Shown here in pieces: positions 4,013 to 33,853 of a DNA stretch of 64,000 nucleotides. Position numbers and translations under genes: made by a program. Source of the stretch: Morinoia aosen (lineage: Eukaryota > Arthropoda > Malacostraca > Amphipoda > Talitridae); the NCBI GenBank assembly GCA_030386875.1, contig CM059566.1, positions 39,530,068-39,594,067 on the forward strand, in the 5' to 3' direction. Positions within the stretch are counted from its first letter, which is position 1. The number at the start of each line of letters is the position of its first letter. The notes under the pieces were generated by a model, which saw only the letters and a program-made list of their open reading frames with translations, did not search any database and was not told the DNA's origin.

Positions 4013-6376
4013 CTTGAACTTGAACTTGAGGGCCGACAGTGTCGGGGCCTTTGTAACGGCCTACAATTCCCTCCACAATTTTCACACAAAGAGTTCAGCG
4101 CCTGGTACCAGACTTGTCCACTAAACTACTCAGGATCTACGATCCTTGTCACAAGCCTCCATTGGAAGGCATCACAGGGACAACCAGTGTGTCAAAACAC
4201 CATCCCCCGGCACATTGGGTCATTACAGCCCATTCTACCAGACTGGCTCATTCCAGTCACTGTCTCTTACTCCAGGCACGCACAAGAAACACTTTCATAG
4301 CCTCAGTGATACTCGCATTACACTCCTGATCCAATCCAGCAAGACAGCTCATACCGCAATCATCTTCAGCACATCTGGCATTCCACTCATTCTCTCCATA
4401 CTGCTCAGACACCACATTCATAAAACTCTCTCTCTCTTGCTCATACTTACTACATTCCAGCACAAAATGCTCTATTGTTTCCTCTACTCCACTATTACAC
4501 TGCTGACATAATCTGTTATTATTCTCATTCCATCTCCATGTACGTCTGTTCACACTCAATGACTTACATCTCACAGCAAACAAGAGTTGACTTCCAAAAC
4601 TACCATCATAGAACAGCTCAAACTTAGGTGCTTTCTTTTTCATATACCAGTTAAGTGTAGGCTTCCGCATCATGCTAAGCTTCCACTTATTCAAACCATA
4701 CTCTTTTGTTTGTCTCTCAATCTCTTTCTTCCACCTCTTGCAGTCCCACTCAGGCCCTACACCTCCAACATTTATTAAACTCCAGTCATCCACAGGTCTC
4801 CCAATTCTAACATGAATAATCTTTTGCATACTGAGTTTCCTTGCATGCCCCCAACATACTTTCTCCCAATAGCTTACACTCAGATTCCATTCAAAGATTC
4901 GCCTTACCCACCTGCTATTCTGCATTCTTTCAATTCTCACCTTATAATTCAGCACAGCTTTCATCATTCTTTCTGAAAATAGGCTCCACCCTAGGTCACC
5001 TCTAATGGCTTCTATAGCTGTCCATTTCGGAGCACCCAATGCTACACGTCCTACCTTATTTTGTATCACATCCAGCTTTTCAAGATCACTTCCATTCCAA
5101 GCAAGAGCACTCATACCATACATGACACTAGGTACAGCAACATACTTCCACATTCCTCTCACACATTCGTACTTGTTTGCTCTGTATCTGGCCACACTAC
5201 CTAACCGTCCACTCCACTGCATTGCTTTAGCCACTTTCTCACCTTTAGTTCTAGTACATCCATCTTCACTTATCATACAACCTAGATATTTGTATTCTTT
5301 TGTTCTACCTATTCTGATTTCTCCAATATTCCACAGTCTGTCTCTATCAGTCTCATCACTATTTATAACCATGACCTTACTTTTATCGGCACCAAAGTTC
5401 ATCTTGAAATCTGTACTATATCCATTCACAATGTCAAGCATCCTTTGTAGTTCATGACCACATTCACTAACCACAACCACATCATCAGCATACAACAAAC
5501 AGCTCAGTCTCTCATTACCAACTTTCAGTCCTAAGCCACTCCCTCTCAGTCGAACTGCTAATTCTTCTGTGTACAATCCAAACAACAGGGGGGACAGAGT
5601 ACAGCCCTGTCTCACTCCTCTAACACTCCTCACTTGACCTGTTTCCAAATTTCCTAACCTGTAGATAGCACTTGTGTTCTCATACAGACTCTGTACAATG
5701 TTCACTATTTTTCTGCTAAAACCAACTTTTCTCAAAATTTCAAACAGCCTAACCCGATCCACTCTGTCATACGCCTTTTCAATATCCAGGAATGCTAAAT
5801 ATACCTTCTTGTTATCCTTCTTCATTCGCTCAATTAGTTCACTCACAACAAACAGATTATCCTCCCCCCGTCTATCTTGCCTAAAACCATTCTGTTCTTC
5901 TCCCAGGACTCCTAATTCCTCAACTAAATTTTTCATTCTCTCATTCAAAATACCACAAAATATCTTACATACGGTGTCACCCAGTGCAATTGGTCTGTAA
6001 TTTTTTAGTTCTTTCATACTCTTATGTCCACCCTTATGCAACAGAACTACATTACACTTGTTCCAGTCATCCGGTACTCTTTCACTCTTCCATATCTCAT
6101 CAAATAAACATTTCAACATACTGACTACACTCTCTCCTCCACATTTATAGAACTCATATGGTATCTTATCAGGACCACATGCCTTTCCATTTTTCACTTT
6201 CTTCAAAAATCTTACAATCTCTTCACAAGTGATTTCGTCTTCCATTTGCAGTTCACGTTCATCTATCAGCAAATTTATCGGTTCATCATCTGTAACCTGC
6301 TCATTCATTCCACCAATGTCCTCCCAGTATTCTTCAACTGCTTTCACCATTTGCATCCTATCTTGCACACTGCAAC
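4013..6376 (-). mobile_element. TTCAAG-tailed LINE, copy A (5'-truncated)
   Basis: This copy keeps the 3' two thirds of ORF2, a ~225-bp 3' UTR and a hexamer tail (about three to four TTCAAG units, minus-strand sense) at 4013-4030. It starts at a point equivalent to ORF2 residue 433. Its truncated 5' end at 6376 directly abuts the hexamer tail of copy B with no spacer, so the two form a head-to-tail dimer. The simplest reading is that A inserted into the tail repeat of B. Sequence is nearly identical to B and G, marking it as a recent insertion of the same subfamily. Confidence 0.9.
4257..6376 (-). pseudogene. LINE ORF2 fragment (RT and C-terminal zinc finger), copy A
   Basis: The frame is open from the truncation point to the stop at 4257. 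It contains the RT core (catalytic D in FLDIEKAYD, the RQGCTLSP turn, YADD) and the C-terminal C-x2-C-x9-H-x4-C finger, but no endonuclease. The open frame actually extends upstream to 6455 through the tail of copy B, where the hexamer is read as alternating Val-Gln, giving a 732-codon chimera. The endonuclease is missing, so the protein could not support retrotransposition alone. Confidence 0.85.
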
Positions 6377-6629: not shown

Positions 6630-9600
6630 TCACTGTCTCTTACTCCAGGCACGCACAAGAAACACTTTCATAGCCTCAGTGATACTCGCATTACACTCCT
6701 GATCCAATCCAGCAAGACAGCTCATACCGCAATCATCTTCAGCACATCTGGCATTCCACTCATTCTCTCCATACTGCTCAGACACCACATTCATAAAACT
6801 CTCTCTCTCTTGCTCATACTTACTACATTCCAGCACAAAATGCTCAATTGTTTCCTCTACTCCACTATTACACTGCTGACATAATCTGTTATTATTCTCA
6901 TTCCATCTCCATGTACGTCTGTTCACACTCAATGACTTACATCTCACAGCAAACAAGAGTTGACTTCCAAAACTACCATCATAGAACAGCTCAAACTTAG
7001 GTGCTTTCTTTTTCATATACCAGTTAAGTGTAGGCTTCCGCATCATGCTAAGCTTCCACTTATTCAATCCATACTCTTTTGTTTGTCTCTCAATCTCTTT
7101 CTTCCACCTCTTGCAGTCCCACTCAGGCCCTACACCTCCAACATTTATTAAACTCCAGTCATCCACAGGTCTCCCAATTCTAACATGAATAATCTTTTGC
7201 ATACTGAGTTTCCTTGCATGCCCCCAACATACTTTCTCCCAATAGCTTACACTCAGATTCCATTCAAAGATTCGCCTTACCCACCTGCTATTCTGCATTC
7301 TTTCAATTCTCACCTTATAATTCAGCACAGCTTTCATCATTCTTTCTGAAAATAGGCTCCACCCTAGGTCACCTCTAATGGCTTCTATAGCTGTCCATTT
7401 CGGAGCACCCAATGCTACACGTCCTACCTTATTTTGTATCACATCCAGCTTTTCAAGATCACTTCCATTCCAAGCAAGAGCACTCATACCATACATGACA
7501 CTAGGTACAGCAACATACTTCCACATTCCTCTCACACATTCGTACTTGTTTGCTCTGTATCTGGCCACACTACCTAACCGTCCACTCCACTGCATTGCTT
7601 TAGCCACTTTCTCACCTTTAGTTCTAGTACATCCATCTTCACTTATCATACAACCTAGATATTTGTATTCTTTTGTTCTACCTATTCTGATTTCTCCAAT
7701 ATTCCACAGTCTGTCTCTATCAGTCTCATCACTATTTATAACCATGACCTTACTTTTATCGGCACCAAAGTTCATCTTGAAATCTGTACTATATCCATTC
7801 ACAATGTCAAGCATCCTTTGTAGTTCATGACCACATTCACTAACCACAACCACATCATCAGCATACAACAAACAGCTCAGTCTCTCATTACCAACTTTCA
7901 GTCCTAAACCACTCCCTCTCAGTCGAACTGCTAATTCTTCTGTGTACAATCCAAACAACAGGGGGGACAGAGTACAGCCCTGTCTCACTCCTCTAACACT
8001 CCTCACTTGCCCTGTTTCCAAATTTCCTAACCTGTAGATAGCACTTGTGTTCTCATACAGACTCTGTACAATGTTCACTATTTTTCTGCTAAAACCAACT
8101 TTTCTCAAAATTTCAAACAGCCTAACCCGATCCACTCTGTCATACGCCTTTTCAATATCCAGGAATGCTAAATATACCTTCTTGTTATCCTTCTTCATTC
8201 GCTCAATTATTTCACTCACTACAAACAGATTATCCTCCCCCCGTCTATCTTGCCTAAAACCATTCTGTTCTTCTCCCAGGACTCCTAATTCCTCAACTAA
8301 ATTTTTCATTCTCTCATTCAAAATACCACAAAAGATCTTACATACTGTGTCACCCAGTGCAATTGGTCTGTAATTTTTAAGTTCTTTCATACTCCTATGT
8401 CCACCCTTATGCAACAGAACTACATTACACTTGTTCCAGTCATCCGGTACTCTTTCACTCTTCCATATCTCATCAAATAAACATTTCAACATACTGACTA
8501 CACTCTCTCCTCCACATTTATAGAACTCATATGGTATCTTATCAGGGCCACATGCCTTTCCATTTTTCACTTTCTTCAAAAAACTTACAATCTCTTCACA
8601 AGTGATTTCGTCTTCCATTTGCAGTTCACGTTCATCTATCAGAAAATTTATTGGTTCATCATCTGTAACCTGCTCATTCATTCCACCAATGTCCTCCCAG
8701 TATTCTTCAACTGCTTTCACCATTTGCATCCTATCTTGCACACTGCAACCATTGACTACTAATTCATCAACTTGAACTTCACTACCTCTATCATTACCTT
8801 GTATGAACCTATACCAATCTTTTATTCCATCTGGACCTTTCTTTCTTAGATTTTCAACTTGGTGTCTCTCTTCTTTAACCCTAGCCTCATTGATCATTCT
8901 CTTTACTTTTTTCTGCTGGTCCTTGTACTCATTCCATACACTCTGCCATTCATCCTCAGTAATTCTGCGTCTTTCATACATTTTCCTCATACTGCGTTGT
9001 TTTTTATTTAAAGTCTTCCTTCTCGTTCGTTCTTCCTTTATCTCACTCGTAAACCACCTAGCATTCCCTGTACTTTTCCTGCATTTCATTCTACCGATCT
9101 TTTGCTCTGCCACATCATACAAGGTTCTTGCAATCTCCTTATTTAGGTCATTTACATTTCCACACCTGTTCCAGTTACATCTACTCAATTCATTTCGAAA
9201 TTCTTCCCAGTTTGCCATTTTAATACGCCAATTTTCTCTTACTCTGCTGGCCTTCTGCATTGACTCCTTTCCACCCCAATTATATTCTAGTACAAGCATT
9301 TTATGGTCACTATCAATATCAAAATCATCTTCATCTACGAACATTTCTCTGACATATATTCTTGCTCTACTATTCACTATCATATAATCAATTGCAGTTT
9401 TACATTCCCTGCTTTGCCATGTATGCAAGCCATTTCCTATTGTTACATTCAGGTTCTCAAGTTCATTCTCATCACAGAAATTAATCAATTTTTGTCCATT
9501 TGCATTCACAGGCTCACCAAGTATACCAACATGGCCATTCATATCACCCATCACAATCAGAGGGCATCTGCAATGCTCTTGCACAATTCTTGTTAATATT

Positions 9601-19869: not shown

Positions 19870-22327
19870 GCTTGAACTTGAACTTGAACTTGAAATTGAG
19901 GGCCGACAGCGTCGGGGCCTTTGTAACGGCCTGCAATTCCCTCCACAGTTATCACACAAAGAGTTCAGCGCCTGGTACCAGACTTGTCCACTAAACTACT
20001 CAGGATTTACCAATCCTTGTCACAAGCTGCCATTGGATGGCGTCACTGGGATAGCCAGTGCGTCAAAACACCATCCCCAGGCATATTGGGTCATTACTGA
20101 CCATTCTACCTGACTGGCTCATTCCAGTCACTGTCTCTTACTCCAGGCACGCACAAGAAACAATTTCATAGCTTCAATGATACTCAAATTGCACTCCTGA
20201 TCCAATCCAGCAAGACAGCTCATACCGCAATCATCTTCAGCACATCTGGCATACCACTCATTCTCTCCATACTGCTCAAGCACCACATTCATAAAACTTT
20301 CTCTCTCTTGCTCATACTTACTACATTCCAGCACAAAATGCTCAATTGTTTCCTCCACTCCACTAATACACTGCCGACATAATCTGTTATTATTCTCATT
20401 CCACCTCCATGTACGTCTGTTCACACTCAATGACTTACATCTCACAGCAAACAAGAGTTGACTTCCAAAACTACCATCATAGAACATCTCAAACTTAGGT
20501 GCTTCTTTTTTCATATACCAGTCAAGTGTAGGCTTCCGCACCATGCTAAGCCTCCACTTATTCAATCCATACTCTTTTGTTTTCCTCTCAATCTCTTTCT
20601 TCCACCTCTTGCAGTCCCACTCAGGCCCTACACCTCCAGGATTTATTAAACTCCAGTCATCCACAGGTCTCCCAATTCTAACATGAATAATCTTTTGCAT
20701 ACTAAGCTTCCTTGCATGCCCCCAACACACTTTCTCCCAATAGCTTACACTCAGATTCCATTCAAAAATTCGCTTTACCCATCTGCTATTCTGCATTCTT
20801 TCAATTCTCACCTTATAATTCAGCACCGCCTTCATCATTCTTTCTGAAAATAGGCTCCACCCAAGGTCACCTCTAATGGCTTCTGTAGCTGTCCATTTTG
20901 GAGCACCCAATGCTAACCGTCCTACCTTATTTTGTATTACATCCAGCTTTTCAAGATCACTTCCATTCCAGGCAAGAGCACTCATACCATACATGACACT
21001 AGGTACAGCAACATACTTCCACATTCCTCTCACACATTCATACTTGTTTGCTCTGTATCTGGCCACGCTACTTAATCGTCCACTCCACTGCATAGCTTTT
21101 GCCACTTTCTCACCCTTAGTTCTAGTGCATCCATCTTCACTTATCATACAACCTAGATATTTGTATTCTTTTGTTCTACCTATTCTGATTTCTCCAATAT
21201 TCCACAGTCTGTCTCTATCAGTCTCATCACTATTTATAACCATAACCTTGCTTTTGTCAGCACCGAAGTTCATCTTGAAATCTGTACTATATCCGTTCAC
21301 AATGTCAAGCATCCTTTGCAGTTCATGTCCACATCCACTAACCACAACCACATCATCAGCATACAACAAACAGCTCAGTCTCTCATTACCAACTTTCAGT
21401 CCTAAGCCACTCCTTCTCAGTCGAACTGCTAATTCTTCTGTGTACAATCCAAACAACAGGGGAGACAGAGTACAGCCCTGTCTCACTCCTCTAACACTCC
21501 TCACTTGCCCCGTTTCCAAATTTCCTAACCTGTATATAGCGCTTGTGTTCTCATACAGACTTTGTACAATTTTTACTATTTTTCTGCTAAACCCAACTTT
21601 TCTCAAAACTTCAAAGAGCCTAACCCGATCCACTCTGTCATACGCTTTTTCAATATCCAGGAATGCTAAATAAACCTTCTTATCATCCTTCCTCATTCGC
21701 TCAATTATTTCACTCACTACAAACAGATTATCTTCCCCACGTCTATCTTGCCTAAAACCATTCTGTTCTTCACCTAGGACTCCTAATTCCTCAACTAAAT
21801 TTTTCATTCTCTCATTCAAAATACCACAAAATATCTTACATACAGTGTCACCTAGTGCAATTGGTCTGTAATTTTTAAGTTCTTTCATACTCTTATGTCC
21901 ACCCTTATGCAACAGAACTACATTACACTTGTTCCAGTCATCCGGTACTCTTTCACTCTTCCATATCTCATCAAATAAACATTTCAACATACTGACCACA
22001 CTCTCTCCTCCAAATTTATAAAACTCATATGGGATCTTATCAGGGCCACATGCCTTTCCATTTTTCACTTTCTTCAAAAAACTTACAATCTCTTCACAAG
22101 TGATTTCGTCTTCCATTTGCAGTTCACGTTCATCAATCAGAAAATTTATGGGTGCATTATCTGTAACCTGCTCATTCATTCCACCAATGTCCTCCCAGTA
22201 TTCTTCAACTGCTTTCACCAGTTGCATCCTATCTTGCACACTGCAACCATTAACTACTAATTCATCAACTTGAACTTCACTACTTCTATCATTACCTTGT
22301 ATAAACTTATACCAATCTTTTATTCCA
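19870..22327 (-). mobile_element. TTCAAG-tailed LINE, copy F (5'-truncated)
   Basis: It starts at a point equivalent to ORF2 residue about 407 and runs through the RT, finger, 3' UTR and hexamer tail. It belongs to the D subfamily. The sequence TTCCGGAAACG borders its 5' end (about 22329-22339) and again lies between its tail and the D 5' end (19854-19864), a candidate 11-bp target duplication. Confidence 0.88.
20128..22327 (-). pseudogene. LINE ORF2 fragment (RT and finger), copy F
   Basis: The frame is uninterrupted from the truncation point to the stop at 20128 and includes the complete RT core and terminal finger, without endonuclease. The open frame continues upstream into unrelated flanking DNA to 22440, so a fortuitous 770-codon frame exists. 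It is nearly identical to copy D. Confidence 0.85.
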
Positions 22328-22440
22328 GCGTTTCCGGAAAACGAGTGAACGTGCGGACTGGTTCCCTCGATATTCGAAGGCACAAATTTTCTACCGCTGT
22401 TTGAAAATATAAATTTCCTAAATTGCTGCGAAGGCAGCAC

Positions 22441-23027
22441 AGCTTATACATTCCAACGTCTATCGCAGTTTTTCGCGCTTTTACCTATAACTGGCCTCGC
22501 AACACATCGTATTATATAAGGTATAAAATATTTCACTACTAGTATATAAGATATTTCACTGCAGGTTTTTGACTTTTCCTAAAGTGAAGCATTTTCCCAA
22601 AATCTTAATAATTCCCAAAAATCTTAATATGAGAGTAGTATCTCTGGACAATACAGTTAGAGTCGTGTGTACAATATGGAAAGTGAAATGTTTCATTCTT
22701 TCATTTGAGAGTAATTTGAAGTCGTTGGGTGCATTCTTTCAAAAGTTAAAACCGGGTCAACTTAAGTTTTTACTGAGCGGAGTCGGAAAGGCTTTTTGAT
22801 GAATTTCTGTAGTTCCCAAAAAACAGTTAGAGTCGTGTGTACAATATGGAAAGTGAAATGTTTCATTCTTTCATTTGAGAGTAATTTGAAGTCGTTGGGT
22901 GCATTCTTTCAAAAGTTAAAACCGGGTCAACTCAAGTTTTTACTGAGCGGAGTCGGAAAGGCTTATTGATGAATTTCTGTAGTTCCCAGAAAACAGTTAG
23001 AGTAGTATTTCTGGACAATACCCTCTT
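22441..23027 (+). repeat. dispersed segment, copy 1, with two 170-bp tandem units
   Basis: Starts GCTTATACATTCC and ends at TTTCTGGACA. The same sequence recurs at 29187-30112 with almost no differences apart from the number of tandem units. Units begin CAGTTAGAG at 22654 and 22824, with a partial third at 22994. In the second copy the segment leads straight into LINE reverse transcriptase, so it may be the 5' part of that LINE. After 23027 this copy passes into unrelated sequence. Confidence 0.85.
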
Positions 23028-24449
23028 CGCCCCAGAAAAATTTGAGCCAACTTGCAAAGTGGGTTCAAATTTTCACCCGTTAATTTTAATTATGACCTTT
23101 ACATACCCCTTACGTTAAAGAGTTAGAAAATATTCACCCTCTTTTTCAATTTCTTAGCTTTTCCCGACATCAACATATCCCTACATATCACCTCATCATT
23201 TACCTTCTTGCAACACGCCGATGTTGACGCATTTATAAAATATTCATTAATACCTGACACACAGTAAATAATTGAAACGCATCTCTTACACACATTATTG
23301 TAGTACGCAAATAGCAAAGAACACAGTAAAGATACCGCACATATCCAACAACTTGAACGCATAAATAAAACACACACGACATATTATTCTCGACTTACTC
23401 TCGGCAAATTCATCAACATAGATAAACATATAAATTAGAGATCGAAAAATCGGCGAATTTGTTACAAGCAGAGACATCCTTTCAGCTTTCTCGGTTGCAA
23501 TCCACCTAAAAACACAATCTCAAAGTGGAGGTGATTTTCCAACCTCAAGTTTTCTTCCTCATGATTATCATTTAATCCTGTGATTCAAAGTAGACGTTTT
23601 TCTTCCAACAAAACTCGCTGTTGCTCCTCCTGCGAGCCTAGGTACAGCTTGTTGTTGTTGTTCCTGTGACGTGCTACTCCTCGGCTTGCTCCTGATCCTG
23701 GGCTTGCTACTGATCCTGGGCTTGCTACTGATCCTGGGCTTGCTACTGATCCTGGGCTTGCTACTGATCCTGGGCTTGCTACTGATCCTGGGGAGGGCCC
23801 CCTGCTGAGAATCGAAGTTACTGAAGCTTTTCCATTAAAAAATTCATCCTTGGCGTCACGTGAATTCGTGGAAAATTCCGTAGATCCTCGTTGCGTCAAA
23901 TCGCGGACAAATCCTGTAGATTACGGCGTCAATACGCGTAGGACTCCCACGTTGGAGCTCATAAGCTCTTTCATAAAATTGTAGAAAATGAAGCACATTT
24001 AATTGCGAAGACCTTCAGGTTTTGGTTCTCAGTCTGCTCGTCGACTAGCATGACATTAACCCCTGATGTTCGCGTTAAATTGCCAATGATCTCCTTCCGT
24101 AAATGTACGCGTTTGATTGTCTAACATGGTTACTTGGTAATCGAGAGACAGCGCATTACATGGTCGATCAACGTAAGAATTGTTCCTCGGTTTTCTTCAA
24201 AATCTGCCTTGAGTGAGGCGGACGTGAGCTACACGAAGAATTCCTACATACAAACATAAAATAGTTACTTTCCGGTATCCTCAACCAACTCTAGACAAAA
24301 GCCGAAATTCGTTCGACGGTGTCACTAATTGGTCAAATCACCTCACAAGACTATATGAACATTATTACACATGATGTACGAACTCGCAGGAGATTTACCC
24401 TCTAGGCCGAAATCCTGAATACGCACCAATAAAAAAAAGCACATATACA
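23028..24449. other. noncoding stretch with an 18-bp minisatellite
   Basis: No gene is visible. At 23684-23790 there are six copies of an 18-bp unit (GGCTTGCTACTGATCCTG). They lie in a 104-codon minus-strand frame (23899-23585) that reads as repeated PGSVAS; this is most likely the repeat staying open by chance, since 18 is a multiple of three. Confidence 0.6.
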
Positions 24450-25020
24450 TTGGGTATTGTCAAGGCGTCTAACTTTACATTATACTCTGCCGCGAAGGCT
24501 TTTCTAACGATCAGACATTATGCCAACACCGACACACAAGAGAAAAATTACACATGAATTGGGTACTATATCAGCTCATCGGACTTTACGTTATACTCGG
24601 CCGCGAAGGCTTTTCTAGCGATCCGACATTCTAACAATACCGACATACAAAGAAATGCAAAAATAGACAAAATGTAGTGTTACCAACCCGTCAAACTTTA
24701 CATCTTACTACGCCGAAAGGCTCTACAGACGATTTGACATTGTGATAACACTGACACAAAAATGCAAAAATAGATACGACACAAAATTTTATCCGATTCT
24801 CAGCCCCAGAGACAGTGCAGCACATTTAAATGATTCCACGTTGCCGCAAGATTATATAAACATTCACACAAATATTGTACACCAAATCGGGAGATTTGCC
24901 AAACAGGCTGAAATCCCTAACGCACTTAATGTACTCATGAATACACAGTGTGTCATCACTCTGTTAGACTTTACATCATACTTTTGCTGAGAACAGCCGT
25001 TCTGATGATCTAACATCCTG
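24450..25020. repeat. ~112-bp satellite, three adjacent units plus one displaced
   Basis: Homologous blocks around ACTTTAC.TTATACT.GCCG begin at 24472, 24583, 24695 and 24968. The first three are spaced 111 and 112 bp. Each carries a CCGAAGGC.T-type core and a GA(T/C)..GACATT block. Units are 75-85% alike by eye, so the array is old. Confidence 0.75.
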
Positions 25021-27972
25021 ATTACACACACAAAATGAAATAAACATGATTATTAACCTAATTCTCAGCCTTTGAGAAATTGCACAATTGTTATTCAATT
25101 ATGTCATTTTCTTCGTCGTCCTTCAATTTCAACGCATTTAATTCAATGCTACTGATAACATTTAATGTACATTCTTTTCTTGTTCTCACAACATCCTACA
25201 TTCTTGCGTTCCGTACTACCACACTAGAGTTTTAACCACATCAACTTGAACGTACCGACAAATTTCTTAATTGCGAGTGCAATCCACTATAGCAATAAAA
25301 TTCCGGCAAAGGCTCTCTGCTGCGCGGTCCATCTCTCTCACATACATTCTCGATGAAGATTTCCCTTGTACAATCCAGTCGCTATGCATTTTCAATTTTT
25401 TAACGCCATAAATCAATTCCTTTGCAGAAATTACACTCCATCTTGAATATTGAGCATTTTCGTACTAGAAAATAAACATATCCTAATGAAGTTGATAAGT
25501 ACATCGTTATTATGCAAACACTCTATCGCCATCAATCAACGCTAGAATTTCAATTATTGACGAAACGGCTCACACAATTTGATTAAAGTTACAACTAAAC
25601 CATGTCAAATTCAAAGCATTGTCGAATGTTTCTGCTCCTCCCATCTTACGCTCAAACATTAGAAGGCACGCCAGAGCTACTTTTGTTGATCAGGCAAAAC
25701 CGACCCCAACGAACCTGTCCAAAATCCGCGCACGAACGAGAGAGAATGCGTAGACAAATACGAGGAATGCATTATAAAATCCAAAAATTATTCTGAAGAA
25801 TTCTCATGGATCTTCCGTTCCACCGATTTAATTCAATACAGAATGTTAGGTCATTTTCGCTTTCAGTACAAGTAAATTTCTCTGTTTAGCGAGACGATAC
25901 TCCCAGACGTACGCAAGGAATATTCATCTCACACGAGGCAATACTTTACTCTGCGATAAAATTCGAGGTCGAATCCCACTCGAGAAATGGCGTAGTATTT
26001 CTTCAAAATCTACACAACTCTATCTCTTTCGCTGTAGTAGAACTCAGTTTCCGTAAGATATAATTTGCACCTCTCACATGAGTATAACTTGAACATACCC
26101 TTAGACGACGAACGATTTGAAGAAAAATACACAATCTTCCAATTAACGCACACTTAAAAATGAAAATTCATTCATCGGTGACATGTAACTGTTTAGACTA
26201 CACAAAATTGCATTTAATCCACGTGTTCCCTCTAAAATCTACAGATGCTTAATATAATAAAAATTCCTTCCTACCTGAAGGCAGCTAGGATTGAATAATC
26301 TTAAATTACCACGCTCTACCATCGAATTCACTTCAAAAAGAAATTTTAAACATCATGAATCTATAAAAGTTAAGGAAGAAAAATTTTTATGCTCATTGAA
26401 TTTGATATAAAGGTATAGATTGACTCATGTCAGTGTCGAAATGGATTGTATAATTGGCACATGGGAAAATTACCCAAAATATTCAATGATTTAGTGTATT
26501 ATTATTGAAGCAATTATTTAAATTCTCACTCTGATGTACTGGAGCTTAGCACAATGATCTTGTGAATAGAAACAGAGGACGAATTTACTTTACTTAACAC
26601 ACGAGCAGCGGCGTCATTTATATCTAAGTGAATAAAATTAGACCACGAACTAAATGTGCAGCATCGTTGGAAGCCATCACTTACTTTAAAACACTACATT
26701 TAATTTTTATCCTAAGCACCGCCACTTAATTCATTCAACAGTTTTGCAACAAGAATTTACCACCCCTTTGATAGCAAGGAAATTGATTCTCAAAATTCCC
26801 ATTACTGCTTCTCAGCAGATGTCAATTTAAATACTTGAAGCTCTCAAATATCAACGAATGAAAATATGAATTATGTTGCTAAAGCTGATTGGAGAAGCTT
26901 GACACACACGAGGCCAAAAAAAATTTTTGCAAATCATTTATAAGCGAGGTATCATTAAAAAAAATTCCAACTATATTAATTACTAAATGCCTCAAAGCCC
27001 AGAAAATGTAAACTTGTTTCAAAGATTCACTTGAGATAAGGCGGCGTTTGCTGGGGTTAGGGCGTTATTTCCCCAGACAATGCTTCACACCTCAATTCAG
27101 TTAAACCTGATAATCGTACAGATCATAGAAAAATTCAACCAAAAATTCAGCACTCAAGGAAAATTTTATTGAACACATTGTCGAGAAAATAGAGCAAGTA
27201 TTTGATGCAATATACACTCAGACAATATTAACTAGATCAACTCAGCGGCACAAAAAAAATGAGCAAAGATCTCGGAAAATATCAATTCCTCATAGCATTT
27301 CGAAATTAATGGCCATGGATAACACTTAGTCAAGTACACTTCAAATTAGGCGCTCAGATTTGGTCCGACTGCAGCTGCCAGAATCTCAATTTTTATTACT
27401 CCGTCCTCCAACCGCGCGACCGGCGTTAGGCGTCGGTACAGCACGCCCACGGTACCGCTCTCTACGTTAGAAATTTTACTCCAAGTTGGAATGCCCACGA
27501 AATGACACGGATGAATTGTACTTGCAGAAAATTCTGCTTAATTATCGAGCGACTATTGGACTGAATTAAAAAAAGAAGAAACAGATATTTTTAGACAACT
27601 GAAAATAATTAAAAAAAATCTCCATGTTGATATACAGACAGTACGCTTGCATAGGTTAATTAATATTTTTCCTGTTGCGATACGGAGAAGGGGTTGGGTT
27701 TAGGACCCCCCCCTTGCCCATACGCTGAGGGAATTGCAACCCCCACACATGTTATAGTATTATCCTTTATGCTTGCGTACACCTGCATACCAGACATGGA
27801 GAATAAAAGGATTGAAGATTTACATGAATTTATTTTGGGAAAAACACGTGGATCAAGTCATACAAGGCATTGAAACGAAATGATTTGAAAGGGCACAACT
27901 GCGTTAATGAAAGGCACACACATTTCTACCGTTTTTAAGACTCTAAACATGACACGATATAATGTGATGCTT
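25021..27972. other. AT-rich noncoding region
   Basis: Nothing recognisable in either strand beyond short spurious frames. If the promoter at 28.9 kb is used, this would be intron or transcript body on the minus strand. Confidence 0.5.
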
Positions 27973-27974
27973 AC

Positions 27975-28888
27975 CGGGAATTCAAGTTACCAATACTCCA
28001 TCGTAGACAACGATTTACGCATACACAGACTGCCGGCTCCACAGTAACACAAATCATAATATTTGCGAGAATAACACATCACGATTTAACCTGGAATTTG
28101 TGACACGGTGTCGAATCATACAACAGGAAGTCGATTCTCGACTCAACAAACACAGGAAATCGATTGCCTATAAATTAGATGATTCTTCGCGATACTTTGA
28201 GAAGCACTTTTCTGTGTGCTGATCTACATCTGAAATTGAACTTCAATCACCACCTAAAAGAGCTCTCACAACTATACAACACTCGCCCTTTTGATAATAA
28301 ATGATTCACTGATGGATATTCACTGCCGATGCCATTGCTCACTGCTGATGTTCCACGTCGTAGCTTAGAATGGCTGCTGTCCTGTGCTGATGTCTCGTTA
28401 ACGTGCTGCAGTGGTACCTTCCACCGCTCCATCTTGGGATGCCGGTATTACAACTCGTATTCACTGCTGCCATGATGCCTGGAATCGCTTTAGAGTTTCG
28501 TTCAGCCCAGGATTCCTTGAGGCGTTGGTGAGCCAATTCACTGTAGTTTTGTGCGCTGATTTTCGCATCGTTGGTGAACGAACTTGACTGTTGATACTCG
28601 CAATGTTGGCGCTTGCGTGGCTCCAAATCTTGATGCTGCAGTTGCCTGTGAGCTCGGTCCCCGATGCAAAGGTATTTGAATCACCGCTGCGAGGCCGGTT
28701 TACTTCGATCAGGTTTCTTTTGGGAGACGGTGTTCACCGGTTGCCGACGTCCAACTTTGTTTCTTGCACTTCGAATTATTAACTTTCAAATTGCAGCTTG
28801 GTAGAAGGCAAGTCGGCTATGCCGACCTGCTGTGTAGTGCACCCTCAGACGTCGTGCGCAGTGCTCTCTCGTGCGTTCAAAAATCCCT
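27975..28888 (-). ncRNA. candidate heat-inducible transcript, first exon (no long ORF)
   Basis: This is the stretch downstream of the promoter cluster at 28911-29095. It has no ATG-started frame longer than a few dozen codons and ends in a good splice donor (CCCG/GTAAGC at about 27975/27974). The sequence is of more balanced composition than its surroundings and contains several CAGTGAA/CATCAGCA-type short repeats. A long noncoding RNA or the 5' leader of a gene further left would fit; a degenerate retroelement leader is also possible. Start position is estimated at about 30 bp from the TATA box. Confidence 0.35.
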
Positions 28889-28910
28889 CACGAGTCTTCA
28901 TCTACCCTCC

Positions 28911-29095
28911 TTATATATGCGCGTCTCGGATCCTTCTCGAATGTTCACGAATATTCGCAGTTACAATGACAGCATTTTACAGCTGATTGGAGGAATTCTT
29001 CCTTGTCCTGACGTCTCGAAATTTCATTGGCTAGGTGCCCGCTTTCATAATTGTGCCACACCTTCTCGTGTGATCGCTTGGCAAGCGTTCATTGG
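28911..29095 (-). promoter_or_regulatory. heat-shock-type promoter: 3 CCAAT boxes, 5-unit HSE, TATA box
   Basis: At 28934-28956 five TTC/GAA units alternate perfectly with two-base spacing, the binding site of trimeric HSF. Fifteen bases downstream on the minus strand is TATATAA (28918-28912). Upstream on the same strand are CCAAT boxes at 28990-28986, 29030-29026 and 29095-29091. Order and spacing are those of classical hsp promoters. Chance occurrence of five perfect units in 64 kb is very unlikely (15 specified bases). Confidence 0.8.
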
Positions 29096-29186
29096 TGTAG
29101 ATGTTGCGGCTTTTGTTTAAGGCCAACCTTCGTATCGCGCCTTCGTGCGAGGCCTGTTCCCATGCCCAAGCGACGGCCGGCTTAAC

Positions 29187-30112
29187 GGCTTATACATTCC
29201 AACGTCTATCGCAGTTTTTCGCGCTTTTACCTATAACTGGCCTCGCAACACATCGTATTATATAAGATATAAAATATTTCACTACTAGTATATAAGATAT
29301 TTCACTGCAGGTTTTTGACTTTTCCTAAAGTGAAGCATTTTCCCAAAATCTTAATAATTCCCAAAAATCTTAATATGAGAGTAGTATCTCTGGACAATAC
29401 AGTTAGAGTCGTGTGTACAATATGGAAAGTGAAATGTTTCATTCTTTCATTTGAGAGTAATTTGAAGTCGTTGGGTGCATTCTTTCAAAAGTTAAAACCG
29501 GGTCAACTTAAGTTTTTACTGAGTGGAGTCGGAAAGGCTTTTTGATGAATTTCTGTAGTTCCCAAAAAACAGTTAGAGTCGTGTGTACAATATGGAAAGT
29601 GAAATGTTTCATTCTTTCATTTGAGAGTAATTTGAAGTCGTTGGGTGCATTCTTTCAAAAGTTAAAACCGGGTCAACCTAAGTTTTTACTGAGCGGAGTC
29701 GGAAAGGCTTTTTGATGAATTTCTGTAGTTCCCAAAAAACAGTTAGAGTCGTGTGTACAATATGGAAAGTGAAATGTTTCATTCTTTCATTTGAGAGTAA
29801 TTTGAAGTCGTTGGGTGCATTCTTTCAAAAGTTAAAACCGGGTCAACTTAAGTTTTTACTGAGCGGAGTCGGAAAGGCTTTTTGATGAATTTCTGTAGTT
29901 CCCAAAAAAACAGTTAGAGTCGTGTGTACAATATGGAAAGTGAAATGTTTCATTCTTTCATTTGAGAGTAATTTGAAGTCGTTGGGTGCATTCTTTCAAA
30001 AGTTAAAACCGGGTCAACTCAAGTTTTTACTGAGCGGAGTCGGAAAGGCTTATTGATGAATTTCTGTAGTTCCCAGAAAACAGTTAGAGTAGTATTTCTG
30101 GACATTCCTCAA
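29187..30112 (+). repeat. dispersed segment, copy 2, with four 170-bp tandem units
   Basis: Same start (GCTTATACATTCC) and end as the segment at 22441-23027. Tandem units start at 29400, 29570, 29740 and 29911, with a partial at 30081, i.e. periods of 170, 170, 171 and 170. Here the segment continues without a break into RT coding sequence. Adjacent units differ by only one or two bases, so the expansion is recent. Confidence 0.88.
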
Positions 30113-30559
30113 GGTTCAATCATCGGCCCGCTCTTATTTTCAATCTTCATCAATGATTTCCCCACCATGCCGGCAAACACAAAAATCTCAATGTATGCTG
30201 ACGACGTACAAATTGCCATGACAAGCTCAACAGCAGATTTAAAAGAAACACAAGCCAACGCTGAAAACCTTCTGAGAAACCTTAAATTGTGGTATGACCA
30301 TAATGGCCTCAAACTTAACGCAAGTAAAACGCAATGCATTATTTTTGGATCACAGAATGCGACTAAAAATTTACCACCATTCAAGCTAACATTTGGAGAC
30401 GATACAATTGAACCAGGAGAGACGGTAAAAAATCTGGGTGTTTGGTTTGACAAAAATATGACTTTCAAATCACACGTCGAAACAATGTGCAACAAAATAA
30501 ACGGAACCTTAATGTTCTTTCATCGCATTAAGAACACACTTGACGAAAAATCTAGATTG
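30090..30559 (+). pseudogene. CR1/L2-like LINE reverse transcriptase, first piece
   Basis: An open frame encodes the central part of a LINE RT: IPQGSIIGPLLF, then FINDFP, MYADDVQIAM with the catalytic Asp pair, and VKNLGVWFDKNM typical of CR1/L2/Jockey-like elements. The N-terminal RT fingers and endonuclease are missing; the 170-bp tandem array lies where they should be. The frame ends at a TGA created by the insertion of LINE copy G, and the rest of the protein resumes at 33383. This LINE is different from the TTCAAG-tailed family. Confidence 0.85.
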
Positions 30560-30560
30560 T

Positions 30561-33380
30561 GAGAGATGAATTGAGTAGATGTAACTGGAACAGGTGTGGA
30601 AATGTAAATGACCTAAATAAGGAGATTGCAAGAACCTTGTATGATGTGGCAGAGCAAAAGATCGGTAGAATGAAATGCAGGAAAAGTACAGGGAATGCTA
30701 GGTGGTTTACGAGTGAGATAAAGGAAGAACGAACGAGAAGAAAGACTTTAAATAAAAAACAACGCAGTATGAGGAAAATGTATGAAAGACGCAGAATTAC
30801 TGAGGATGAATGGCAGAGTGTATGGAATGAGTACAAGGACCAGCAGAAGAAAGTAAAGAGAATGATCAATGAGGCTAGGGTTAAAGAAGAGAGACACCAA
30901 GTTGAAAATCTAAGAAAGAAAGGTCCAGATGGAATAAAAGATTGGTATAGGTTTATACAAGGTAATGATAGAGGTAGTGAAGTTCAAGTTGATGAATTAG
31001 TAGTCAATGGTTGCAGTGTGCAAGATAGGATGCAAATGGTGAAAGCAGTTGAAGAATACTGGGAGGACATTGGTGGAATGAATGAGCAGGTTACAGATGA
31101 TGAACCAATAAATTTTCTGATAGATGAACATGAACTGCAAATGGAAGACGAAATCACTTGTGAAGAGATTGTAAGTTTTTTGAAGAAAGTGAAAAATGGA
31201 AAAGCATGTGGTCCTGATAAGATACCATATGAGTTCTATAAATGTGGAGGAGAGAGTGTAGTCAGTATGTTGAAATGTTTATTTGATGAGATATGGAAGA
31301 GTGAAAGAGTACCTGATGACTGGAACAAGTGTAATGTAGTTCTGTTGCATAAGGGTGGACATAAGAGTATGAAAGAACTTAAAAATTACAGACCAATTGC
31401 ACTGGGTGACACCGTATGTAAGATCTTTTGTGGTATTTTGAATGAGAGAATGAAAAACTTAGTTGAGGAATTAGGAGTCCTGGGAGAAGAACAGAATGGT
31501 TTTAGGCAAGATAGACGGGGGGAGGATAATCTGTTTGTAGTGAGTGAAATAATTGAGCGAATGAAGAAGGATAACAAGAAGGTATATTTAGCATTCCTGG
31601 ATATTGAAAAGGCGTATGACAGAGTGGATCGGGTTAGGCTGTTTGAAATTTTGAGAAAAGTTGGTTTTAGCATAAAAATAGTGAACATTGTACAGAGTCT
31701 GTATGAGAACACAAGTGCTATCTACAGGTTAGGAAATTTGGAAACAGGGCAAGTGAGGAGTGTTAGAGGAGTGAGACAGGGCTGTACTCTGTCCCCCCTG
31801 TTGTTTGGATTGTACACAGAAGAATTAGCAGTTCGACTGAGAGGGAGTGGTTTAGGACTGAAAGTTGGTAATGAGAGACTGAGCTGTTTGTTGTATGCTG
31901 ATGATGTGGTTGTGGTTAGTGAATGTGGTCATGAACTACAAAGGATGCTTGACATTGTGAATGGATATAGTACAGATTTCAAGATGAACTTTGGTGCCGA
32001 TAAAAGTAAGGTCATGGTTATAAATAGTGATGAGACTGATAGAGACAGACTGTGGAATATTGGAGAAATCAGAATAGGTAGAACAAAAGAATACAAATAT
32101 CTAGGTTGTATGATGAGTGAAGATGGATGTACTAGAACTAAAGGTGAGAAAGTGGCTAAAGCAATGCAGTGGAGTGGACGGTTAGGTAGTGTGGCCAGAT
32201 ACAGAGCAAACAAGTACGAATGTGTGAGAGGAATGTGGAAGTATGTTGCTGTACCTAGTGTCATGTATGGTATGAGTGCTCTTGCTTGGAATGGAAGTGA
32301 TCTTGAAAAGCTGGATGTGATACAAAATAAGGTAGGACGTGTAGCATTGGGTGCTCCGAAATGGACAGCTATAGAAGCCATTAGAGGTGACCTAGGGTGG
32401 AGCCTATTTTCAGAAAGAATGATGAAAGCTGTGCTGAATTATAAGGTGAGAATTGAAAGAATGCAGAATAGCAGGTGGGTAAGGCGAATCTTTGAATGGA
32501 ATCTGAGTGTAAGCTATTGGGAGAAAGTATGTTGGGGACATGCAAGGAAACTCAGTATGCAAAAGATTATTCATGTTAGAATTGGGAGACCTGTGGATGA
32601 CTGGAGTTTAATAAATGTAGGAGGTGTAGGGCCTGAGTGGGACTGCAAGAGGTGGAAGAAAGAGATTGAGAGACAAACAAAAGAGTATGGATTGAATAAG
32701 TGGAAGCTTAGCATGATGCGGAAGCCTACACTTAACTGGTATATGAAAAAGAAAGCACCTAAGTTTGAGCTGTTCTATGATGGTAGTTTTGGAAGTCAAC
32801 TCTTGTTTGCTGTGAGGTGTAAGTCATTAAGTGTGAACAGACGTACTTGGAGATGGAATGAGAATAATAACAGATTATGTCAGCAGTGTAATAGTGGAGT
32901 AGAGGAAACAATTGAGCATTTTGTGCTGGAATGTAGTAAGTATGAGCAAGAGAGAGAGAGTTTTATGAATGTGGTGTCTGAGCAGTATGGAGAGAATGAG
33001 TGGAATGCCAGATGTGCTGAAGATGATTGCGGTATGAGCTGTCTTGCTGGATTGGATCAGGAGTGTAATGCGAGTATCACTGAGGCTATGAAATTGTTTC
33101 TTGTGCGTGCCTGGAGTAAGAGACAGTGACTGGAATGAGCCAGTCAGGTAGAATAGGCTGTAATGACCCAATGTGCCTGGGGATGGTGTTTTGACACACT
33201 GGCTATCCCAGTGACGCCATCCAAAGGCAGCTTGTGACAAGGATTGGTAGATCCTGAGTAGTTTAGTGGACAAGTCTGGTACCAGGCGCTGAACTCTTTG
33301 TGTGATAACTGTGGAGGGAATTGTAGGCCGTTACAAAGGCCCCGACGCTGTCGGCCCTCAATTTCAAGTTCAAGTTCAAG
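30561..33380 (+). mobile_element. TTCAAG-tailed LINE, copy G (5'-truncated, plus strand)
   Basis: The copy begins at a point equivalent to ORF2 residue about 285, right after the endonuclease. Five bases (30561-30565) at the 5' junction match neither parent. The 3' UTR, stem-loop and hexamer tail (33362-33380) are intact. TGT at 30558-30560 and at 33381-33383 is a minimal 3-bp target duplication. It is the only complete-3'-end copy on the plus strand. Confidence 0.92.
30566..33129 (+). CDS. LINE ORF2 lacking endonuclease (copy G)
   Basis: About 854 codons are open and collinear with residues 285-1138 of ORF2 in copy B, differing by a handful of substitutions (for example H in DEHELQ and I in GFSIKI). 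The linker, complete RT (FLDIEKAYD, RQGCTLSP, YADD) and C-terminal finger are present. Without an endonuclease or a native start codon it should be a dead copy, but its undamaged frame shows that it is young. Confidence 0.85.
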
Positions 33381-33853
33381 TGTTAGTGATTCAGTCTTTA
33401 GTTTTATCGCGCCTGGACTACTGCAGTCTTGTATGGGGAAATTTACCTCAATATCGTCAGGAAGAGTTGCAAAAATGTGTAAACTTCGCCGCCAAAGTGG
33501 GATGCAAAGGAAATTTCAATAAATACGATCATGTCACCCCTCTTTTAAGAAAACTCGACTGGATCCCAATACCGAACAGATTCATGATCCAAAAAGCTCG
33601 ACGAGTGTTCTCCTCTCTGTACCTCCCCCAAAGTAATGCAGAGGTGGTAAAATTTTTTCCATCTAATATCCCAAACAAAAAACCAAATCGGAGGAATGAT
33701 GTTTTAGTCAGTTACCGTTCATCTAACGTGGGACAAAAAGCTCTCTCAGTTTCTGGAGCTTTTTTGTGGAACAAGCTTCCCCAGCATATCAAAAACTCTA
33801 AAACTGTGAAAGAATTTAGAGTAAATGTGTCGCGTCATTTTGCATCTCTATAG
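33381..33853 (+). pseudogene. CR1/L2-like LINE reverse transcriptase, C-terminal piece
   Basis: Continues the RT interrupted at 30560. It has the conserved C-terminal signature SRLDYCSLVWG, then LQKCVNFAAKV, HVTPLLRKLDWIPI and LWNKLP, diagnostic of the CR1/L2/Rex1-like thumb and tail region, and ends at a stop at 33851-33853. The frame is in phase with the 3' UTR and tail of copy G upstream, so an ATG at 33302 within copy G opens a chimeric 183-codon frame. Confidence 0.85.

Follow-up and report, generated by a model that had tools for sequence, protein, structure and literature searches.

Within a stretch of 64,000 nucleotides from the amphipod Morinoia aosen (from here on the window) the minus strand carries what looks like a complete heat-shock promoter with no recognisable protein behind it, which raises the question of what this promoter belongs to and what it drives. 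A motif scan of this strand located a heat shock element (HSE) of five perfect alternating units, GAATATTCGTGAACATTCGAGAA, at 28956-28934, a sequence also marked out by its constraint across copies, followed by a TATA box (TATATAA, 28917-28911) and preceded by three CCAAT boxes (29095-29091, 29030-29026 and 28990-28986). All of these had been described from the letters alone (the sequence-only reading), and only the gap between HSE and TATA box has to be corrected, from 15 to 16 bases. The HSE is the single five-unit array in the window; base composition predicts ~0.0002 such arrays per 64 kb and none occurred in 200 windows simulated with a first-order model. A donor-like GGTAAG was likewise found at its claimed place (27975-27970, minus strand), and from 23 to 28 kb this strand holds no stop-free frame of at least 150 amino acids, in agreement with the earlier remark that the downstream region has no frame of note. 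From this layout, together with a 112-bp satellite further downstream, the sequence-only reading had proposed a stress-induced non-coding RNA gene resembling hsr-omega of Drosophila, with the leader of an HSE-bearing retroelement as the alternative. Our analysis leads, with a probability of about 0.8, to the conclusion that the promoter sits in the LTR of a young LTR retrotransposon, non-autonomous and driven by heat shock factor (HSF), whose family is one among several that are related. Below we describe its LTR structure, its many copies, the lack of a detectable coding region and the evidence that the HSE is constrained among copies that have diverged.

When analysing the sequence around the promoter, it was found to lie in a 5' LTR of 2432 bp (TGTCCAGAAATA...CGTATCGCAACA; 30104-27673, minus strand), the ends of which were set from the complete LTR pair of another genomic copy (L009) and from the target duplication. 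Its upstream part contains a 170-bp tandem repeat in 4.1 copies (29399-30090, minus strand), the copy number of which varies among the genomic copies of the LTR, and the GGTAAG, a candidate splice donor within the LTR, stands upstream of a candidate poly(A) signal revealed by motif scan (AATAAA, 27834-27829, minus strand). Judged by these motifs, promoter and poly(A) signal both lie within the LTR, as expected of an LTR retrotransposon, with the HSE upstream of the core promoter as in an ONSEN-like element. The interior (27672-23018, minus strand, 4655 bp) is without coding signal, shares partial homology with interiors from other families and gives way to the 3' LTR, of which the window contains the initial 576 bases (23017-22442, minus strand) up to the point where a LINE array was inserted; the remainder of this LTR is found past the array, beyond the window (L014, orientated positions 7842-9344). 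The LTRs have TG...CA ends, and the 3' LTR closes with ...CAACA and is directly followed in L014 by GGAA, identical to the GGAA preceding the 5' LTR (30105-30108, minus strand), the two being the copies of a 4-bp target duplication. Compared with the 5' LTR, the far part of the 3' LTR shows one mismatch in 1503 bases. In the near part the number of mismatches varies with the register chosen for the 170-bp repeat, being seven in 565 bases or none in 366. Because the LINE array intervenes, the two LTR promoters of the element lie 33.7 kb apart. The sequence directly after the 5' LTR starts GGAAAAATATTAATT, and inspection by eye for the canonical TGG-type start of a tRNA primer-binding site, and for this start only, did not find one there.

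The poly(A) signal, both LTR ends and the second LTR at 23017-22442 had been overlooked in the sequence-only reading. As for the 112-bp satellite, repeats of ~112 bp do exist, but merely as three degenerate units inside the interior of the element (24454-24715, minus strand) and a fourth at 24950-24988, with 62-74% identity to the first over 39 bases; one pair is 87% identical over 68 bases. The hsr-omega transcript, by comparison, holds a long array of short tandem repeats.

The LINE array is arranged in tandem, head to tail, occupies the window from 1 to 22441 and continues upstream of it on contig C11. Its length, estimated from the distance between the separated parts of the LTR, is ~27 kb, and it represents a single insertion in the 3' LTR within a 6-bp duplication, ATAAGC, one copy of which is situated at 22442-22447 (minus strand). 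Endonuclease and reverse transcriptase were identified in its units by Pfam, and a GDSL-like match in the first ORF was below the cut-off. An older reverse-transcriptase relic (region 29972-33853), into which the HSE element was inserted, is interrupted by another LINE copy that runs the opposite way (30563-33384); the parts of the relic lie at 29972-30562, recognised by Pfam, and probably at 33293-33853, without Pfam match.

A search of the 1.99-Gb genome with the 185-bp promoter gave 751 candidates, the best 40 of which were scored and were all 98-100% identical; among these 40, nine same-strand pairs, 6.3-8.5 kb apart, could be found in addition to the pair of the window element. An exact search of the genome gave 174 sites for the 23-base HSE and none for its reversed control, and among the 100 sites listed 54 make up 27 same-strand pairs, 4.4-11.2 kb apart, with 21 pairs spaced by 6.3-7.0 kb. 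One copy, L009, is complete, with LTRs of 1918 and 1917 bases, the ends TGTCC...CAACA, no mismatches over the 1917 bases compared and a CGCG duplication. In four other LTR pairs the parts compared differ by 6 of 1863 bases (L010), 4 of 1480 (L011), 2 of 1020 (L012) and 5 of 1586 (L013). All five elements for which both outer flanks were read show a target duplication of 4 bp (CGCG in L009, GAAG in L046, ACCT in L049, TGAA in L050 and GGAA in the window), and in a sixth, L015, the sequence ends after two matching duplication bases. Long, near-identical direct repeats with TG...CA ends and a short target duplication thus identify the unit as an LTR retrotransposon, and the copies of the window family are 97-100% identical in the promoter. 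The search for further copies of the promoter region, which the sequence-only reading had suggested, ended in a multitude of them, arranged as paired LTRs and bounded by target duplications.

The interior of the window element contains no stop-free frame longer than 111 amino acids, and in five interiors (4372-5547 bp) the longest stop-free frames were within the null range. Alignments of the L009 interior with those of L048 and L049 over ~1.35 kb showed no strong codon phase in the mismatches, and the indels were a multiple of three in one of 11 and one of 14 cases, respectively. Of the stop-free pieces, ten chosen from L009 and the longest one from L046 were compared with Pfam and gave no match above the cut-off; below it, the L009 pieces matched DUF4811 (E 0.014) and Transposase_28 ('putative gypsy type transposon', E 0.084). 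A coding interior is thereby unsupported by the frame, codon-phase, indel and Pfam analyses, and the gag-pol coding region of an autonomous member was not found in the interiors analysed. LARDs, known mainly from plants, are elements with a non-coding interior of more than 4 kb between LTRs and are presumed to be mobile in trans. The window element resembles them in its 4655-bp non-coding interior between LTRs, and all five elements mentioned above exceed ~4 kb in this respect. Gypsy reverse-transcriptase pieces upstream of the HSE at a related locus, L051, were considered as a possible autonomous partner and rejected, since they lie ~3-4.5 kb off, across a minisatellite, and their best match to any element interior is one of 24 residues in L047 at E 0.081, below the cut-off; they are taken as flanking sequence. 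A scan of the window from 22000 to 30500 with Rfam gave no family at the gathering threshold, so no hammerhead ribozyme, and the reading of the element as a retrozyme was rejected on this ground.

Paired LTRs with perfect HSEs are also present in four more elements (L046, L047, L048 and L049), which represent about three diverged family groups; in the second LTR of L047 one spacer letter of the HSE is altered. When comparing the LTRs of the window family, L046 and L047, similarity was found mainly in the promoter, in L046 also near the end, and the diverged families, whose loci were chosen by their HSE, contain perfect HSE units between which the spacer letters differ. When four interiors were aligned, the identity of pairs, averaged over stretches of 150 bases of the window interior, was 0.10-0.70, gaps counted as differences, and at least 0.50 in 20 of the 31 full stretches. 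All six LTRs collected in a library contain a CCAAT box 126-145 bases upstream of the HSE (the first box in the window), a TATA-like box 15-19 bases after it and a poly(A) signal downstream, and the second and third CCAAT boxes recur at -74 in three and at -34 in four of the six. The promoter module is apparently common to LTR families of one genome by descent.

The perfect five-unit HSE pattern matched 570 times in the genome, against ~8 expected, and the reversed control pattern matched 480 times, which itself far exceeds the expectation from base composition; a genome-wide enrichment of HSEs by count alone is therefore not relied on. The distinct places among the first 30 five-unit matches in genome order make up 28 HSE loci, and 24 of these have a match among the six library LTRs at E 1e-5 or below, which in L016 and L021 covers only ~115 bases of the promoter; L024, L025, L026 and L038 match one another only. 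A TATA-like pattern is absent from seven of the 28 loci (L023, L024, L025, L026, L035, L036 and L043) and is placed 26 bases after the first five of seven HSE units in L030. A seven-unit HSE, perhaps arisen by unit duplication, is present in a related LTR at L051 (orientated positions 5830-5862, C1:30380138-30380170).

Host genes for Hsp70 were included in the survey, a captured hsp70 promoter being a conceivable source of the LTR promoter. The Hsp70-domain search gave 349 candidates, the best 53 of which were scored, many of them clustered on C3, C4 and C21, and the C4 cluster looks duplicated ~0.9 Mb apart. For 16 Hsp70/DnaK domain starts the preceding ~660 bases contained no perfect run of at least three HSE units, two of these stretches being doubtful as L067 ends in an apparent 5'UTR splice acceptor and L054 looks bacterial; among the 100 five-unit HSEs listed, none is situated inside the C3 or C4 Hsp70 clusters. 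Several strong Hsp70/DnaK matches lie on C27 at ~56-72 Mb (L054), and since the stretch upstream of one of them is bacterial-looking, C27 may include joined unplaced or bacterial sequence. Six units of TTAGG, the arthropod telomere repeat, matched 6769 times in forward and 8723 times in reverse orientation in the genome, and five units of TTAGGG gave no match, which makes an arthropod the most likely host.

The copies of the window family are young and near-identical and therefore uninformative about selection. Copies were instead sought with the 571 bases downstream of the TATA box in L052, a query that lacks the HSE, L052 itself having been found by its HSE. Of the 44 rows obtained, the 27 reaching the promoter side were used and the query and 16 others excluded; the copies in this sample are 71-92% identical to the query. 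All 15 core bases of the HSE are kept in 13 copies, 14 in eight, 13 in three and 12 in one, and the HSE is absent from two. Mean pairwise diversity, calculated for 25 copies without the two HSE-less ones and with the five units adjoining the TATA box taken from a seven-unit copy, was 0.108 in the 15 core columns and 0.449 in the eight spacer columns interleaved with them, a fourfold difference, while the flanks showed 0.451 (25 upstream columns) and 0.364 (10 downstream columns). By permutation, p was ~1e-5 when core and spacers of the HSE were compared and, with all 58 columns included, 5e-6, the lowest value that the test could give. Because all columns have one genealogy, relatedness alone does not produce the contrast between core and spacers. 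A second query, L046, yielded a sample of 13 among 40 scored places, picked among the more diverged, in which the core is complete in four copies, lacks one base in one and the HSE is missing from one; the other seven form a subfamily with a decayed HSE (12-13 of 15), shared losses and still several copies. The HSE is in this way conserved beyond its surroundings in one set of related LTRs, with one subfamily departing from the pattern. Judged from these alignments, the HSE appears to have been maintained by selection in the lineages that went on copying, apart from the subfamily in which it has decayed.

The GGTAAG is a recurrent feature as well: 14 of the 28 HSE loci have it downstream of the HSE, at a distance of 911-1132 bases, and the other 14 lack it. 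In total 15 occurrences were counted in the 1-kb downstream stretches of these loci, compared with one on the opposite strand and two and two in the upstream stretches. Eight of the 14 loci come from the window family and three from the C/D group, so that the independent lineages are few. In the four library LTRs that have the motif it is followed by a poly(A) signal. The layout of promoter, exon and donor pointed out in the sequence-only reading accordingly recurs beyond chance, but as the property of a retroelement and not of a single gene, and with the recurrent donor an HSE-driven, possibly spliced non-coding RNA of the retroelement remains plausible. In retroviruses, binding of U1 at the donor lets the polymerase bypass the first poly(A) site.

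A mechanism may be proposed along these lines. Under heat or other proteotoxic stress the host HSF would bind the HSE in the LTR and, together with CCAAT- and TATA-binding factors, initiate a transcript within the LTR. Starting in the 5' LTR, the transcript would traverse the interior and reach as far as the AATAAA in the 3' LTR, and the GGTAAG ahead of the AATAAA in the 5' LTR could let the polymerase pass this first poly(A) site, through U1 or through splicing. The element RNA would then be reverse transcribed and integrated by proteins of a separate autonomous element. Lineages without the HSE would mostly leave fewer copies, so that the HSE stays and the spacers drift, and as a by-product candidate HSF-responsive promoters would be strewn over the genome. 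Taken to its full extent this would describe an old, gene-less LTR superfamily using the heat-shock response as its on-switch, with a selected HSE, a donor that bypasses the poly(A) site, scattered promoters and possibly a dispersed RNA resembling hsr-omega, a broad picture which we put forward tentatively, as less likely than not.

Several other explanations have to be weighed. A single-copy stress gene of the hsr-omega type, with HSE promoter, unique exon, intron and tandem repeats, would account for the promoter, the long non-coding stretch, the donor recurring at about +1 kb and the short internal repeats; the whole unit is, however, repeated genome-wide with LTRs and target duplications, and its internal repeats amount to three to four degenerate units and no long satellite. 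As the unit is multicopy and bounded in this manner the single-gene reading fails and is hardly tenable, in line with the sequence-only reading, which had itself named numerous copies with LTRs or target duplications as speaking against such a gene and was right in its alternative, the HSE being located in the LTR of a multicopy element. That the HSE was inherited by chance from a captured hsp promoter, is functionless and persists through recent common descent would suit the young copies of the window family, 97-100% alike in the promoter, and the subfamily with the decayed HSE. This is very improbable when considering that the core is fourfold less variable than the spacers in copies only 71-92% alike and picked without the HSE, and that diverged families, although chosen by their HSE, have perfect units despite different spacer letters.

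A coding retrotransposon, the genes of which were missed owing to introns, frameshifts or an unusual protein, would fit the partial homology of the interiors across diverged families, the hint at splicing from the recurrent donor and the weak protein matches below the cut-off, but with neither a codon-phase nor an indel signature over the 1.35 kb compared, ORFs that stay within the null in all five interiors and no Pfam match above the cut-off for the chosen stop-free pieces we consider it improbable. A rather unlikely but real contender is a mobile LTR element whose HSE is used not for heat induction but for expression that is constitutive or developmental, for instance through germline HSF without heat. 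The constraint on the HSE reveals that the site matters and not when it is used, and HSFs do act in gametogenesis without stress; perfect five-unit arrays are, on the other hand, typical of strongly heat-inducible promoters, and an array of seven units is found at the related locus L051. For the preferred reading, an HSF-driven non-autonomous LTR retrotransposon, the diverged relatives, which mostly retain the HSE in their sequences, suggest that the elements exploit the heat response of the host to copy themselves, and the element is one of an ordinary class with an unusual and, it appears, selected promoter.

Whether stress drives bursts of transposons is an old question for which a well-worked case of an HSF-driven LTR is the plant element ONSEN (PMC3907296), the fungal and nematode cases of heat-responsive LTR elements being suggestive (PMC12810828, PMC4714518). 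With several LTR families bearing textbook HSEs and evidence of their retention, heat-driven retrotransposition in an animal becomes testable. These elements bring ready-made candidate HSF promoters and are a possible source of new heat-responsive genes; if the proposal is true, heat waves would mobilise the superfamily and make neighbouring genes heat-inducible. Among the matches listed in the literature search, mostly open-access and represented by titles and the openings of abstracts, no animal LTR family with conserved multi-unit HSEs appeared, and the term 'transpos' is absent from the available part of a study of Drosophila HSF sites (PMC3021535).

When comparing the element with known systems, hsr-omega of Drosophila and SatIII of humans are stress-induced non-coding transcripts (PMC9032817); hsr-omega is a single-copy gene, in contrast to the window element, which is a dispersed retroelement, neither single-copy nor provided with a long tandem array or satellite. 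Among mobile DNA in animal genomes, Helitrons of Caenorhabditis carry HSEs (PMC6927752) but are DNA transposons and not LTR elements. In C. elegans a subset of LTR elements is heat-inducible and normally blocked by germline nuclear RNAi, with HSF and HSEs unnamed in the main text (PMC4714518). Another animal likeness is copia of Drosophila, an LTR retrotransposon with heat-shock consensus sequences and an expression raised by heat (cited in PMC3907296), which is also transcribed without heat, responds much less than ONSEN and lacks the at least three further nGAAn copies needed for high-affinity HSF binding (PMC3907296). In Cryptococcus the LTR retrotransposons TCN3 and TCN12 are mobilised at 37 C and have two and one putative HSEs in their LTRs, respectively (PMC12810828); they are fungal, and TCN3 has a gag-pol ORF. 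ONSEN (ATCOPIA78) of Arabidopsis, the LTR of which contains heat-responsive elements bound by host HSF (PMC3907296), shares with the window element the position of HSF-type heat elements in the LTR of a retrotransposon. It differs in being a copia-type plant element with heat induction shown, whereas induction is predicted for the window element, in which no Ty1/copia coding region was found and the HSE has five perfect units. Several heat-responsive LTR families with HSEs, COPIA37, TERESTRA and ROMANIAT5, are described from Brassicaceae, where, for most families, the sites are described as species-specific (PMC5059998), while in Morinoia aosen the module is common to the families of one genome.
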